Assembly (NCBI GenBank): GCA_018222345.1
Contig: JAAFAL010000011.1
Span: 2,558 to 40,968 of the forward strand
DNA: 38,411 nt
Direction: 5' to 3'
Source: a bacterium
GTDB taxonomy: Bacteria; Pseudomonadota; Gammaproteobacteria; Nevskiales; OUC007
Under the pieces are notes generated by a model. The model was given only the letters and a program-made list of their open reading frames with translations, searched no databases and was not told the DNA's origin. Of the stretch, positions 13,938 to 21,172 are shown piece after piece. Within the stretch, counting starts at the first letter, position 1. Each line of letters begins with the position of its first letter. Both the position numbers and the translations under genes were made by a program.

Positions 13938-14092
13938 TACAATAAAGGTGGCTACACGCCAAGGACGTCAGTTCCTCCCCTAGCGGGGTGACCCTGCCGT
14001 CACCCGCCGGGCACGCAAAAGCGCCCCCACTTCTGGCCAAAATCGGCCAACGCTATCTGGCGCCGCTGCTTGGCGCCGGTTCAAGGATTCCC
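13938..14092 (+). promoter_or_regulatory. Structured leader of the DEAD-box helicase gene
   Basis: A -10-like TACAAT (13938-13943) lacks a good -35. Downstream are four inverted repeats: CCCC-TAGC-GGGG (13977-13988), GGTGAC-CCTGCC-GTCACC (13987-14004), TGGCC/GGCCA (14034-14049) and GGCGCC/GGCGCC (14059-14077). The first two share 13987-13988. The last ends 5 bases before the AAGGA ribosome site (14083-14087). Structure-dependent control is inferred from this layout. Confidence 0.45.
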
Positions 14093-15385
14093 ATGTCTTT
14101 CGACACCCTCGGCCTGTCGGCCGAACGCTTGCGCGCGGTTCGCGATGCAGGCTTTGACACCCCCACACCCATTCAAGCCAAAGCCATCCCGCCCGTACTG
14201 GAAGGCCGCGACGTACTCGCCGCAGCACAAACCGGCACGGGCAAAACCGCGGCCTTTGCGCTGCCCATGCTCGACCTGCTGGCCAAGGGCCGCAGTGCCG
14301 GCAAGCGCCAGGCACGGGCGTTGATCCTCACGCCCACACGCGAACTCGCTGCGCAGGTGCACGAGAATTTCACCGAAATGCGTGGTGAAACCCACCTAAG
14401 CACCACACTGATCTTCGGCGGCGTGGGCCAAAACCCGCAAGTTGGCCGCATGGCCAAGGGCCGCGACATTCTCGTGGCCACGCCGGGCCGCCTGCTCGAC
14501 CTGGTCAACCAAGGCCACATCGACCTGTCCGCCGTGGAAATTTTGGTGCTGGACGAAGCCGACCGCATGCTGGACATGGGTTTCATCCACGACATGAAAA
14601 AGGTCATCAAGCTGCTGCCGCCCAAGCGCCAGACGCTGCTGTTCTCGGCGACGTTTTCCAAGGACATCCGCAAGTTGGCGTCGCAGTTTCAGCACAACCC
14701 GATTGAGGTTGATGTGGCTCCGCGCAACAGCACCGCCGAGCGCGTCGAGCACGCCGTGCTGCACGTGAGCGACCCGGCCAAAGCCAACAAGGCGCAGTTA
14801 CTCATCCACCTGCTGCGCGAGCACGGTTGGCACCAGGTGTTGGTGTTCCACCGCACCAAGCATGGTGCCAACAAGCTCACGCGCCAGTTGGAACAGGCAG
14901 GCAACAAGGCTGCGGCGATCCACGGCAACAAGAGCCAGTCGGCCCGCACCAAGGCGCTGGAAGGCTTCAAAAAAGGCGAGATCACCGTGCTGGTGGCCAC
15001 CGACATCGCCGCCCGCGGCTTGGACATCGAACAATTGCCGGTGGTGATCAACCACGACCTGCCCAACGTGTCCGAAGACTATGTGCACCGCATTGGCCGC
15101 ACGGCCCGTGCTGGCGCCGAAGGCTTGGCGTTGTCGTTGGTTGGCCCGGAAGATCGGCCATTGCTGCGTGACATCGAAAAACTGCTGGGCCACCGCATCG
15201 ACATCCGCGAAGTACCTGGCCACACTATCGACAACCCGCCGACGACCAGCGGCGGCGGCCAACCCGTGAGCCGTAGTGCCAAACCAAAACGCAGCGCCAA
15301 GCCCGGTGACGGGCCGGGAAAGCCCGGCGCGCGTAACAGGCGCCGGCGGCGTGGTGGTGGGGGCGGCCGCAGCGCGTCGCGCTAG
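14093..15385 (+). CDS. RhlE-type DEAD-box RNA helicase
   Basis: A 430-residue ATP-dependent RNA helicase. Motifs in order are the Q motif (TPTPIQAKAIP), Walker A AAQTGTGKT (44-52), PTRELAAQ, TPGRLLDL, DEAD (154-157), SAT, TDIAARGLDI and HRIGRTARAG. After the helicase core (to about 375) comes a tail of about 55 residues rich in Lys, Arg and Gly, ending in an Arg/Gly cluster, which probably binds RNA non-specifically. RhlE-type helicases work in ribosome assembly, RNA decay or cold adaptation. ATG 14093 follows an AAGGA site; the upstream open frame is leader sequence. A structured leader suggests post-transcriptional control. Confidence 0.95.
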   Translation: MSFDTLGLSAERLRAVRDAGFDTPTPIQAKAIPPVLEGRDVLAAAQTGTGKTAAFALPMLDLLAKGRSAGKRQARALILTPTRELAAQVHENFTEMRGETHLSTTLIFGGVGQNPQVGRMAKGRDILVATPGRLLDLVNQGHIDLSAVEILVLDEADRMLDMGFIHDMKKVIKLLPPKRQTLLFSATFSKDIRKLASQFQHNPIEVDVAPRNSTAERVEHAVLHVSDPAKANKAQLLIHLLREHGWHQVLVFHRTKHGANKLTRQLEQAGNKAAAIHGNKSQSARTKALEGFKKGEITVLVATDIAARGLDIEQLPVVINHDLPNVSEDYVHRIGRTARAGAEGLALSLVGPEDRPLLRDIEKLLGHRIDIREVPGHTIDNPPTTSGGGQPVSRSAKPKRSAKPGDGPGKPGARNRRRRRGGGGGRSASR

Positions 15386-15400: not shown

Positions 15401-15553
15401 CCCCTCACCCCGGCCCTCTCCCTCAGGGAGAGGGGGCTATTTCCTTCTCCCTGGGGGAGAAGGTGCCCCATAGACAGTGCGAAGCACAGACCCCCTTCTC
15501 CCGCTCGCGGGGGAAGGTGCCCGAAGGGCGGATGGGGGTAGGCGGATGAGGGG
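15401..15553. repeat. CCCCTCA...TGAGGGG palindromic repeat element
   Basis: The element starts CCCCTCACCCCGGCCCTCTC and ends GGATGAGGGG. Inside are stacked hairpin arms: CCCTCAGGGAGAGGG, CTTCTCCCTGGGGGAGAAGG and CCTTCTCCCGCTCGC followed by GGGGAAGG. Repeats of this look occur between genes in many proteobacteria. It fills most of the gap between the helicase and hydrolase genes, both on the plus strand. Confidence 0.75.
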
Positions 15554-17522: not shown

Positions 17523-18323
17523 TTAGCCGCACTGTGGCCGTCGGCCGGCGCGCTTGGCAGCTTCGTACTCCGGCATAACTTGCGGGATGCGGCCATTCAG
17601 GTCATTGATGCGCGTGTCGTGCGACGGGTGCGTTGAAAGGAACTCAGGCGGCTGATTCCCGCCACTTTCTTGGGCCATGTTGCGCCACAGGGCGACGCTG
17701 GCACGCGGGTCAAAACCTGCACGCGCCATCAAATCCAGGCCGTACAAGTCGGCCTCGGATTCCTGGGTGCGGCCAAACGGAAGCAAGATGCCCACTTGTG
17801 TGCCAATGCCCAGCAGCCCAAACAATTGTTGCTTGGCCGGGGTGGGGTCGCCTGCGGCCACTTGCGCCAACTGCAGCCCGGCGTTGGCCAGGTACGACTG
17901 CGACACACGCTCGTTGGAGTGATTGGCCAGCACGTGGGCAACCTCGTGGGCTACCACAGTGGCGAGCTGGTCTTGGTTCTTGGCGACCTTGAGCAAGCCG
18001 GTGTGCACCCCGATCTTGCCGCCGGGCAGCGCGAAGGCATTGGCGCTGTCTTCCTCGAACACCTGCACCTCCCAGTCCTGCCGCTCGGGCAATGTGTTGG
18101 TGATCGCGTAGGCCACGCAGTTGACGTAATTGTTGACGCCGCGGTCGGACGAGGTTGGCGTTTGCTTCTTCATGCTGGCGAATGCAGCAACACCCATCTG
18201 CGACATTTCAGCCGACGGGAACAGTGTGAGTTGCTTGCGGCCTAGCGGCGAGGTGGTGCAAGCCACGACAACGGCAGCAGCACCGATAGCGAGCAGCGCC
18301 GTTTGGATAGATTTACGAGACAT
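17523..18323 (-). CDS. M48-family metalloprotease lipoprotein
   Basis: A 266-residue zinc peptidase with a lipoprotein signal peptide and lipobox VVAC (C22). The zinc site is HEVAH (126-130), with the third ligand E188 in ESEADLYG (ExxxD). Close relatives are the E. coli envelope lipoproteins LoiP and YcaL, which degrade misfolded outer-membrane proteins such as BamA or LptD. The length is typical. ATG 18323 places the lipobox correctly; a longer open frame upstream is unlikely. It is divergent from the outer-membrane protein gene at 18468, and both products belong to the envelope. Confidence 0.93.
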   Translation of the reverse strand: MSRKSIQTALLAIGAAAVVVACTTSPLGRKQLTLFPSAEMSQMGVAAFASMKKQTPTSSDRGVNNYVNCVAYAITNTLPERQDWEVQVFEEDSANAFALPGGKIGVHTGLLKVAKNQDQLATVVAHEVAHVLANHSNERVSQSYLANAGLQLAQVAAGDPTPAKQQLFGLLGIGTQVGILLPFGRTQESEADLYGLDLMARAGFDPRASVALWRNMAQESGGNQPPEFLSTHPSHDTRINDLNGRIPQVMPEYEAAKRAGRRPQCG

Positions 18324-18400: not shown

Positions 18401-18429
18401 TTGTGAAATTCATTGGCGGCAATTAACAT
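18401..18429 (+). promoter_or_regulatory. Probable sigma-70 promoter
   Basis: TTGTGA (18401-18406) and TAACAT (18424-18429) are separated by 17 bases, each matching four of six consensus positions. Transcription would begin near 18436, inside the operator palindrome, about 32 bases before the GTG start of the outer-membrane protein. Confidence 0.5.
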
Positions 18430-18443
18430 ACCGTTCGGTATGT
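18426..18443. promoter_or_regulatory. TetR-type operator
   Basis: ACATACCG (18426-18433) and CGGTATGT (18436-18443) are perfect inverted arms around TT. Palindromes built on ACCG-NN-CGGT with flanking AT are typical binding sites of TetR-family repressors. It overlaps the -10 element and predicted start point, a position fit for repression. No TetR gene lies in the window. Confidence 0.65.
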
Positions 18444-18467
18444 AAATGCAAGTCGGGAGACAACACG

Positions 18468-19832
18468 GTGCGACCAACCCAAGTTTTGTTGCTGGCCGGC
18501 GGGCTGCTGGGCAGCGGGCTGGCCGCAGCGGCCGACAGTGAGGTGTATCTGACGCTGGAGGCCGAGCACCGTGAGTACCCGCAGGAGTCGATGGCGCCCG
18601 GCCGCGAAGACCGCAGCAGTAGCGCGGCGGCGACGGTGGAGTGGTTCACCGAATGGAATCGTGGCGACCAACTGCTGTCGGGCAAGATTTTCGGCCGCGT
18701 CGATTCAGTCGATGACGAGCGCACCCACGCCGACATCCGCGAACTGAGTTTTTTGCACGCTGCGCGCAGTTGGGAAGCGCGGCTGGGCATTCGCAAGGTG
18801 TTCTGGGGCGTTGCCGAATCACGCCATTTGGTTGACATCATCAACCAGACCGACTTCGTCGAAGACATCGACGGCGAGGACAAGCTGGGCCAGCCCATGG
18901 TCAACCTGGCGTGGATTACCCGCGGCTGGGGCAGCTTCGACGCCTTCTGGCTGCCGTATTTCCGCGAACGCACATACCCCGGCGAGGAGGGCCGCCCTGG
19001 CTTTCCATTGCCTATCGAAGAAGACGAAGCGCGCTACCAGTCGGACGACGAGCAGCAACACCAGGATTTTGCCGCCAGTTGGCGCCACACCGTTGGCCCG
19101 GCTGATTTCCGCTTTGGTTGGTTTGACGGCACCGCGCGCGCGCCGCGCCTGCTGCCGTGCGTGCGTCAGGGCAGTGGTTTCCCAGGCACCGCAAACCAAG
19201 CCAACTGCAACATTGCATCGGCCGCGCCGGAAAGCCCGTCGCTCACTGATGTCGAGGCGCTGGATGCGCTGATCACCGCAATCGCTCAGCAGGCCGGGCT
19301 GGCACCGACGGATGCCCAAGTCCGCCAGCAAATCATCAGCAATTTGGTGCTGGTGCCGTTCTACGACCAGATCCGCCAGGCCAGCCTGGATGCGCAGGTG
19401 ATTCTGGGCGGCTGGGCGCTGAAGTTCGAAGGCACGCGGCGCGAACAGCTGGGCAATTACACCAATGCCATGGTCGCGGGCTTCGAGTACACCCTTTACG
19501 GCCTATTCAACGGCGCCACCGATGTCGGCCTGCTCAGCGAATACCTGTACGACGAGCGCGACGACCCGCTGGTGGCGCTGTTCGACCGCGACCTGTTCGC
19601 CGGAACCCGCATCGCGCTGAATGATGTTGCCGGCACCACGTTCCTCGGCGGCACCATTTACGACCTCGACGACGAGTCATTTGCCATCACCGTCGAAGCC
19701 GAGCGCCGGCTCAACGAAAGCTTCAAGGCGCAGATCGAAGCGCGATTGTTCACCAATGTGCCCGAGGGCGCGCCCACCCAAGTGTTCGCCAATGAAGACT
19801 TTGTCAGCCTGATTCTGCAGTACTACTTTTGA
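18468..19832 (+). CDS. Outer-membrane beta-barrel protein of unknown family
   Basis: A 454-residue protein with a signal peptide (about 1-22, ending GLAAAADS) and a sequence of alternating polar and hydrophobic stretches typical of beta strands. It ends in LQYYF; a C-terminal aromatic residue is the usual signal for BAM insertion. Recognisable parts are FGRVDSVDDERTHADIREL, ARLGIRKVFWG and ESRHLVDIINQTDF, the kind of motif seen in DUF1302-like barrels, though shorter than those. A loop of about 90 residues (near 225-315) has two cysteines. The start is GTG at 18468 with GGGAGA seven bases upstream. The TetR-type operator suggests induction by a small molecule. Confidence 0.8.
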   Translation: MRPTQVLLLAGGLLGSGLAAAADSEVYLTLEAEHREYPQESMAPGREDRSSSAAATVEWFTEWNRGDQLLSGKIFGRVDSVDDERTHADIRELSFLHAARSWEARLGIRKVFWGVAESRHLVDIINQTDFVEDIDGEDKLGQPMVNLAWITRGWGSFDAFWLPYFRERTYPGEEGRPGFPLPIEEDEARYQSDDEQQHQDFAASWRHTVGPADFRFGWFDGTARAPRLLPCVRQGSGFPGTANQANCNIASAAPESPSLTDVEALDALITAIAQQAGLAPTDAQVRQQIISNLVLVPFYDQIRQASLDAQVILGGWALKFEGTRREQLGNYTNAMVAGFEYTLYGLFNGATDVGLLSEYLYDERDDPLVALFDRDLFAGTRIALNDVAGTTFLGGTIYDLDDESFAITVEAERRLNESFKAQIEARLFTNVPEGAPTQVFANEDFVSLILQYYF

Positions 19833-19852: not shown

Positions 19853-21019
19853 CTATGCCAGCAGGGGGTCATCATCGGCGATGACTACACAGTTTCTGCC
19901 CTGCTGCTTGGCCTGGTAAAGCGCGGCGTCGGCACGCCTGAACAGTGCCTCGCGGTTGCCGCCCTGGCGCGGCCGGATTGACGCCGCGCCGATGCTCACG
20001 GTTGGCGGCTCGCGGTTGGTTTGGCGAGCCATTGCAGTCAGGCGCTCGGTGATCTCGTCGTACAGCAATTGTGGCAAGCCCTCACGCTGCGGCGTGCCGT
20101 ACCAGATGCCGCAGAACTCATCACCGCCGTAGCGGGCGATCCGGTCTAGCGGGCGCCGCGACATCTCACGCATCGCCTCGGCCACGGTACGCAAGGCCGA
20201 ATCACCCCATGCATGTCCAAAGCGGTCGTTGACCTGCTTGAAATGGTCGATATCGACCATCACCAGCATCAGCGCCTGGTCTTCGCGAAAGGCCTGCTTC
20301 CACAGGTCGTCCAGGTCGGCGTCCAGCCCGCGACGATTGAGCACCGCCGTCAGCGCATCATGCGTGGCGAGCTCTTCGACCATCGCATGCGCCACCCACG
20401 CGCGGCGCTGATAGCGCTCCAGCATGTAGCAGCCAGCCATGCCGACAATGTTTGTCGCCACCAGGAAGAAACTGGCGTAAATCATCGGCGTGGCAGCCGA
20501 CCCGCTGGCCCATTGCGCAGCCAAGTAGGCGAGAAAATAGCCCCAACCCACCACCACCGCGGCGCGGAACAACAGCATGGAAAACAGGTAGGCGTAGGCA
20601 ATGAACACAATGCCCGCCTCGTAGGCATACGGGGGCGTCATCGGATCCGTGCGCGTCAACACAAATGCCCAGACAAAGCCGGCGCCCGACAACGCCAATG
20701 CAAACAATGTCACCTGTCCCATTATCGGTCGCATAGCGCGCTGGCTGGGCACCAGGCCAGCCAGCAGCAGCGCAGGCACAACGCCGATGCCGATGGCAGC
20801 GACGACGACTTGCGGCAGGCGTTGGCCCAATACCGCGAGGTCGGCGATCAAGAATGCGGCGGTGAGTAAGCCCGCCGAAAATACTGCAATACCGCTGCCC
20901 CAAGCGCGCATTTCGACCCACTGGGCATTGAACTCACGTTCCAAGCCGGGCTCGAAACGCAGCCGCCAGTCGCGACGTGCCGCCTGCTGTTGCAGGGCAT
21001 TCGTGCGGTTGTTGTGCAT
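19853..21019 (-). CDS. Membrane-bound diguanylate cyclase (GGDEF)
   Basis: A 388-residue enzyme making cyclic di-GMP from two GTP. The N-terminal half (about 35-195) has six hydrophobic helices without a recognised sensor domain; the GGDEF domain (about 215-385) follows. The active site is intact: GGDEF at 298-302, with DIDHFKQVNDRFGH upstream. An inhibitory I-site RPLD lies exactly five residues before GGDEF, so product inhibition is likely. ATG 21019 is chosen; a TTG eight codons upstream is possible. It converges with the outer-membrane protein gene, with 20 bases between stops. Confidence 0.93.
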   Translation of the reverse strand: MHNNRTNALQQQAARRDWRLRFEPGLEREFNAQWVEMRAWGSGIAVFSAGLLTAAFLIADLAVLGQRLPQVVVAAIGIGVVPALLLAGLVPSQRAMRPIMGQVTLFALALSGAGFVWAFVLTRTDPMTPPYAYEAGIVFIAYAYLFSMLLFRAAVVVGWGYFLAYLAAQWASGSAATPMIYASFFLVATNIVGMAGCYMLERYQRRAWVAHAMVEELATHDALTAVLNRRGLDADLDDLWKQAFREDQALMLVMVDIDHFKQVNDRFGHAWGDSALRTVAEAMREMSRRPLDRIARYGGDEFCGIWYGTPQREGLPQLLYDEITERLTAMARQTNREPPTVSIGAASIRPRQGGNREALFRRADAALYQAKQQGRNCVVIADDDPLLA

Positions 21020-21172
21020 CTCGTACGCGCGCGCCGACGCCAAAGATTGCGGGTTGCGCAGTTTTTCCTGCGCCTTTGGTCAACTCGGCGGCCTCCTCAA
21101 CAGTGACTATGCCGGAATTACCTGCACCGAACCAATTCACCAACGCTGCAGGCGCGCTACCCTTGGGCGGCA

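Follow-up and report, generated by a model that had tools for sequence, protein, structure and literature searches.

The barrel gene and its upstream region

The window, that is, the whole stretch of 38,411 nucleotides analysed here, carries a gene for a predicted outer-membrane beta-barrel, in front of which a palindrome overlaps a candidate promoter. On the other side of the palindrome, a gene for an M48 peptidase is read divergently. The features of this region are as follows.

17523..18323, minus strand: divergent M48 peptidase gene (Pfam M48, 2.6e-40)
18401..18406, plus strand: candidate -35, TTGTGA (4/6 to consensus; under the scanner threshold)
18424..18429, plus strand: candidate -10, TAACAT (17 nt spacer; 4/6; overlaps the left arm of the operator)
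18426..18443, no strand assigned: predicted TetR-type operator, ACATACCG-TT-CGGTATGT (two further sites in the genome; found before the barrel in 4/4 family genomes)
18455..18459, plus strand: Shine-Dalgarno-like GGGAG, 8 nt 5' of the GTG
18468..19832, plus strand: predicted outer-membrane beta-barrel, 454 aa (from a structural model, fold matches and the neighbourhood of relatives)

The palindrome is a perfect inverted repeat of 8+8 bases with a 2-bp centre, ending 24 bp before the GTG start of the barrel gene at 18468, and its first four bases are shared with the candidate -10. A preliminary description of this DNA had placed the palindrome over the -10 of a plausible promoter, and the letters at 18426-18443 confirm this. 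It should be noted that the promoter is weak, agreeing in 8/12 letters over both hexamers; because the promoter scanner requires 9/12, none was listed here. The encoded protein has a signal-like N-terminus, as judged by reading, and terminates in YYF. The barrel gene is probably transcribed alone, since a convergent GGDEF gene (19853-21043) comes next.

The window contains many perfect 8+8 repeats with loops of 0-8, 19 being counted (overlapping registers included) against 1-12 in ten mononucleotide shuffles. The palindrome alone is therefore unremarkable, and as a bare repeat it was rejected as evidence by itself. The letter pattern of the operator was matched once in the window and in none of 100 shuffles. 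Overlapping pyrimidine/purine inverted repeats of the CCCTCTCC type were also observed at 15414-15470, just beyond the open reading frame 13988-15385; they are perhaps a terminator or a repeat element.

Operator sites and the TetR gene in the genome and the order

The genome containing the window (G000; 3.0 Mb, 220 contigs, 98% complete) was searched for the 18-base pattern, with at most two mismatches allowed. Three sites were obtained, that of the window included, compared with one for the reversed pattern. The second site, ACATACCGGTCAGTATGT at C190:4784-4801, separates two genes: a TetR gene (C190:4159-4764) begins 19 bp from it on one side, and a gene of the old-yellow-enzyme type (OYE, PF00724) begins 44 bp from it on the other; the OYE query begins one codon past the likely ATG (4846 in L017), which leaves the match unaffected. 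The TetR gene is followed in a same-strand row by an MMPL exporter, a LolA_like protein (PF17131, plus a DUF1329 match at 4.9e-10) and a 4HBT_3 thioesterase. The third site, at C214:10958-10975 with one mismatch, is located 30 bp before a 4HBT_2 thioesterase. On C190, past the OYE gene and a TauE-type gene and before a BCCT-type transporter, a 367-aa porin-like protein is encoded (L017, 7037-8140) that has no Pfam match, these assignments being made by reading.

TetR_N was matched 13 times in G000 at E<=0.001, in each case on a contig other than that of the window, which bears out the earlier remark that no TetR regulator is nearby. The check proposed there, a genome search for more sites and for a TetR gene with a matching operator, yielded two sites beyond that of the window, one of which precedes a TetR gene, so that the refuting outcome named there (neither another site nor a fitting repressor) did not arise. 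The dispersed regulon that had been suggested is supported by this computation, in which the arrangement recurs in 4/4 family genomes. For the other 12 TetR genes, the 320 bases that precede the TetR_N match held nothing under three mismatches to the core (CATACYRNNYRGTATG, the pattern used throughout the order). The stretch VTKGALYHHF of the C190 TetR is invariant in 10/10 aligned orthologues. Its best NCBIfam match is AcuR (NF051457), and at 95.2 bits against an equivalog cut-off of 247 the protein was not assigned to that family. Upstream of another TetR gene of G000, with the stretch VTKGSFYWHF, a palindrome CATACGAAAGCGTATG was observed (L008, on C45, 1716-1733). It is a half-site relative of the operator, of the CATACG type and three positions off the core, and cross-binding by that TetR is possible for this reason.

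Conservation was followed in the family, sampled as four genomes in two genera (G000 and G001-G003). Each contains one barrel match, the other three being 60-63% identical to that of the window, and in all four a site precedes the barrel (0, 1, 2, and 2 mismatches) and a TetR orthologue has a site in front of it. A TetR gene with this site next to it is thus present in 4/4. Each genome has three sites, and the reversed-pattern control gave 0, 2, 0, and 0. In G001-G003 the third site is positioned before a second MMPL pump, with that of G003 cut by the contig end; the G000 pump closest to this one is 45% identical. The TetR site of G003 is about 250 nt upstream of its TetR gene. The site excepted, the DNA upstream of the window barrel is unlike its counterpart in the other genus. 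In all four genomes the M48 gene is read divergently next to the barrel, with 71-72% identity in the other three. In G001-G003 the site is about 10-14 nt from the barrel start used and about 440-510 nt from the estimated M48 start, making the barrel the likelier target; the M48 peptidase gene is probably not a target of the operator.

Across the 85 genomes of the order, the core was detected in 26 and the reversed control in none, while a TetR orthologue (profile A2, E<=1e-30) was detected in 23. Both were present in 20 genomes, TetR only in three (G038, G059, G060), the site only in six (G011, G021, G035, G080, G082, G083) and neither in 56. The association has a Fisher p of 2.2e-11 with related genomes treated as independent, the core having been written after the family and barrel-locus sites were viewed, so that the table is partly not independent of those; the outer A/T letters were outside the pattern. 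At this G+C content the core is expected by chance about 0.08 times per 3 Mb, and the six sites in the 62 genomes lacking the TetR are accordingly near chance level. The outer A/T letters are kept in 56/74 places at the 37 sites of TetR-bearing genomes versus 3/12 at the six other sites. An exact core stands directly before the TetR orthologue in 13/23 genomes, G003 counted in; the remaining upstream sites show one mismatch (6/23) or two (2/23), and none was seen in G059 and G060. A random-window control was set aside, as it includes windows overlapping the sites themselves (373/5000 at <=2 mismatches).

The site in G082 is a possible exception to chance: at L255 (G082:C8, 3975-3990) an exact core overlaps the beginning of a different TetR gene, a non-orthologue of the TetR_C_13 type adjoining a haloacid-dehalogenase-type gene (by reading). 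The TetR genes of G059 and G060 (L260, L261) are without a recognisable operator, and those of G057, G058, and G061, from the same genus, have one at 1-2 mismatches. Either the site was lost in G059 and G060 or the specificity changed.

The position of the operator within the TetR promoters could also be ascertained. In 19/21 core-bearing TetR loci the arrangement TTGA.., 16/17 nt, CATACT is observed (TTGAC in 17), and it was not seen in L154 and L186. Because this is the normal spacing from a -35, the left arm of the operator can be taken as the -10 at TetR promoters, and a repressor bound there would, as the sequence reads, cover the -10. The left arm of the barrel operator has the letters CATACC; in the window the candidate -10 overlaps this arm, and in G001-G003, where the hexamer is TAGGAT, it abuts the arm. 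The same blocking is plausible from these letters, though less clear than at TetR. A palindrome overlapping a promoter is hence found at the TetR promoters and, with a weak promoter, in the window.

The barrel family and its gene neighbourhoods

At the limits used, no Pfam or NCBIfam family was matched by the barrel; a TUTase match (E 0.0058, below its own cut-off) was taken as chance. The earlier view that the barrel is of no recognised family holds for these two collections, yet the protein is part of a large uncatalogued family, with at least 576 relatives confirmed by genome scan. The best 80 of these were taken for the counts at named loci. Many of the 80 are from Gammaproteobacteria, and records labelled Nitrospirae, KSB1, Acidobacteriota, and others are also present. 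Among 72,556 plasmid records, distant relatives only were found, in six.

An AlphaFold2 model built from 21 sequences (pLDDT 82.8, pTM 0.78) displays about 18 strands. Among solved structures, the best fold matches (Z 22-24, identity about 10%) are the OprD/Occ, BenF-like, and AlgE barrels, and the TM-score in Foldseek is at most 0.60 among the 50 matches listed. The exporter AlgE and the porins OprD/Occ and BenF-like tie at this Z, so the comparison does not discriminate between export and uptake. Antiparallel strands and a C-terminal aromatic residue agree with an outer-membrane beta-barrel, by prediction only.

The relation to DUF1302 (PF06980) was considered separately. The window barrel gave no match to it at E up to 1, is absent from the seven DUF1302 matches of G000, and was not assigned to this family. 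Among 21 members of the barrel family, four match DUF1302 at E<=0.1, the best at 5.6e-7; comparison of the two profiles gave E 0.031 with a probability of 1.6% over 31 columns, and comparison of single sequences found nothing. From these sequence comparisons, a distant kinship between the barrel and DUF1302 is possible.

The neighbours of the barrel are more informative with respect to its partners. With profiles built in this analysis, LolA_like adjoins the barrel (within about 0.5 kb) in 68 of the best 80 loci and MMPL lies within the fetched stretch in 59; the two occur together with the barrel in 58 of the 80 stretches, some of which are incomplete. Pump, LolA-like protein, and barrel are thus encoded together in the barrel family, while in G000 the barrel is apart and is linked to the others by the shared operator alone. 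A TetR was found in 10 of the best 80 loci and in none of the fetched stretches of the other 70. The core is present in 8/10 of the TetR-bearing loci, the two exceptions being L155 and L181 (where the TetR match is weak), and in 1/70 of the others. This last one is not independent, because its locus (L107) is the G003 contig and the core is the G003 barrel site itself.

In 6/20 barrel loci examined (a set without the second copies of G011 and G064-G066, the G064-G066 rows having been viewed with the further loci, and without the weak matches of G013 and G022), TetR, LolA_like, and barrel follow one another in one row with the site before TetR. MMPL lies in between in four of the six, and none was found in L063 and L069. 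Three more rows of TetR, LolA_like, and barrel were seen at L248, L252, and L253. In five of six further TetR loci (G053, G057, G059, G060, and G061), none of MMPL, LolA_like, and barrel was found within the 11-14 kb fetched; in the sixth (G038), LolA_like was the only one of these found in the stretch fetched. A tree of 21 barrels groups those of the four family genomes firmly (100/100) but attaches them weakly (66/30) to the barrels of TetR rows; the family barrel may for this reason have been recruited from among relatives instead of having been displaced from such a row.

Proposed regulation and transport path

The sites, their conservation, their co-occurrence with TetR, the gene neighbours, and the predicted fold were all computed here, and from them we infer binding of the TetR at all three sites and repression of the genes behind them. 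It is very probable that the operator belongs to the C190 TetR. The whole reading, in which the barrel supplies the outer-membrane component of an MMPL/LolA-like transport system and is under trans repression by this TetR, is considered likely. The AcuR-like protein encoded at G000:C190:4159-4764 would recognise the palindrome as its operator and, when no inducer is present, would sit on the barrel promoter and block RNA polymerase. It would also shut its own row of TetR, MMPL exporter, LolA_like carrier, and 4HBT_3 thioesterase, act on the 4HBT_2 thioesterase, and probably on the divergent OYE-type reductase. On accumulation of a hydrophobic ligand, perhaps of the acyl or enone type, the repressor would be released and the parts produced together. 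The MMPL pump would then take the compound out of the inner membrane, the LolA-like protein would ferry it through the periplasm, and the barrel would let it pass the outer membrane, so that an outward direction and a single path of three parts are proposed. Induction by hydrophobic compounds, already suggested in the preliminary description, is plausible given what the sites stand before (MMPL exporter, LolA-like protein, thioesterases, and OYE-type reductase). Two more MMPL pumps of a comparable class are encoded in G000 (C154, C118), and either could be the partner of the barrel instead.

Several other explanations were weighed against this. The regulon may be real and the barrel a porin, either general or for uptake, with hydrophobic or aromatic substrates, induced with the pump and acting outside the MMPL-LolA_like path. 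Substrate-specific porins share the top of the fold comparison with AlgE, and in the four family genomes the barrel is not beside the pump, both of which suit such a role; nevertheless, the LolA_like and MMPL neighbours counted above in 68 and 59 of the best 80 loci would be unexpected for a stand-alone porin, and this explanation is regarded as unlikely. A second question is the identity of the repressor, since a different TetR of G000 might bind the barrel operator. The C45 protein is the obvious example, with its similar recognition stretch and its CATACG-type palindrome, but that palindrome differs from the core at three positions, and the site tracks the C190 orthologue (20/23 genomes with it, 6/62 without), leaving another TetR very unlikely.

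The target and the function of the site can be questioned as well. In the window the M48 start is 102 bp from the site and the divergent pair is conserved, as would suit an operator serving the peptidase rather than the barrel; against this stand the distances in G001-G003, where the site nearly adjoins the barrel start and is hundreds of nucleotides from that of M48, and we hold a peptidase operator to be highly improbable. Even less credit is given to a functionless chance repeat. The abundance of perfect 8+8 repeats in the window would allow it, whereas near-identical letters at the same place in 4/4 family genomes, against an otherwise differing upstream DNA, and the order-wide association of site and TetR argue against chance.

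The outer-membrane passage of compounds lifted by MMPL/HAE3-type pumps in Gram-negative bacteria is poorly known. Through the common operator, an orphan barrel is connected with a pump and a LolA-like carrier whose genes lie at another locus, and a concrete set of partners is thereby provided. Moreover, the core can serve as a search pattern for candidate members of the regulon in the order, and the TetR offers a handle on the natural substrate through inducer screening.

Known systems point the same way by analogy. AmeABCD of Castellaniella defragrans is linked to tolerance of hydrophobic monoterpenes, and there the outer-membrane AmeA (DUF1302), the periplasmic AmeB of the LolA superfamily (DUF1329), and the HAE3-type RND pump AmeD are likewise encoded together; in contrast, AmeA is a DUF1302 protein and the window barrel matches no Pfam family, AmeABCD has a further component, AmeC (COG4447), of which no counterpart was noticed here, and the available portion of that report describes no TetR with dispersed operators (PMC6394551). 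In Pseudomonas putida, PP_0765/PP_0766 and PP_2018/PP_2019 are connected with growth on Tween 20 and predicted to interact; there too the barrel and the DUF1329 protein are encoded away from the pump with a common phenotype, although the proteins are of the DUF1302/DUF1329 kind and the sections available mention no common operator (PMC10866462). TOL_3187/TOL_3188 of Thalassolituus oleivorans, raised on n-C28 alkane, comprise MMPL and LolA-like domains and, after them, a porin-like protein in which no domain is known; unlike in G000, MMPL and LolA-like parts are in a single protein there, and the likeness of the barrels is by description only, as given in the accessible text (PMC6304351). As for the regulator, AcuR of Rhodobacter sphaeroides is a TetR-type repressor of acrylate genes whose inverted-repeat operator overlaps its own promoter, as here, but whose letters are different (TAATAGAC-n6-GTCTATTA), according to the part of the report available (PMC3017554). 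Among the open-library papers found for this subject, none describes in its title or opening abstract lines a TetR with dispersed operators over such a transport system. The system does not belong to a new kind; what is newly observed is a regulon tying an uncatalogued barrel family to a known MMPL/LolA-like kind of transport.

In TetR-bearing genomes, dispersed sites stand directly before OYE-type genes in seven cases (G044, G047, G049, and G053-G056; Pfam was run for G044 and G055, the others being named from their start sequences), and the OYE proteins of G000 and G044 are 43% identical. A site precedes the second MMPL pump in G044 as in G001-G003, with 66% identity between G001 and G044, and another MMPL-type pump has its start adjoining a site in G065. 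The 4HBT_2 thioesterase is preceded by a site in G000 and G064 (66% identity), and an alpha/beta hydrolase in G057 (by Pfam), with genes of similar sequence in G058 and G061. No clear target was apparent for the G065:C32 site, 55 nt from a PF10118 gene, or for the G004:C1 site, 88 nt from a LuxR-type gene. Tentatively, and with somewhat less than even confidence, a wider proposal can be made: a conserved TetR regulon with several promoters would sense a hydrophobic, perhaps electrophilic, lipid and turn on a full export path across two membranes, the uncatalogued 18-strand barrel family being the conduit. The same operator would then stand before different handling genes according to family, namely the OYE-type reductase, the 4HBT_2 thioesterase, the alpha/beta hydrolase, the second MMPL pump, and a DUF1302 barrel.

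The last of these is encoded in G004 directly behind a site (E 1.7e-161). At L233 (G004:C10, 3995-6410) this barrel of 794 aa lies behind a core operator and adds another barrel type to the genes that follow it; the next 1.6 kb hold CinA-like and RecA-like frames (by reading) and no evident DUF1329 gene. DUF1302 is frequent in the order, being matched 23 times in G004, 23 times in G053, and seven times in G000, compared with zero in 14 control genomes.
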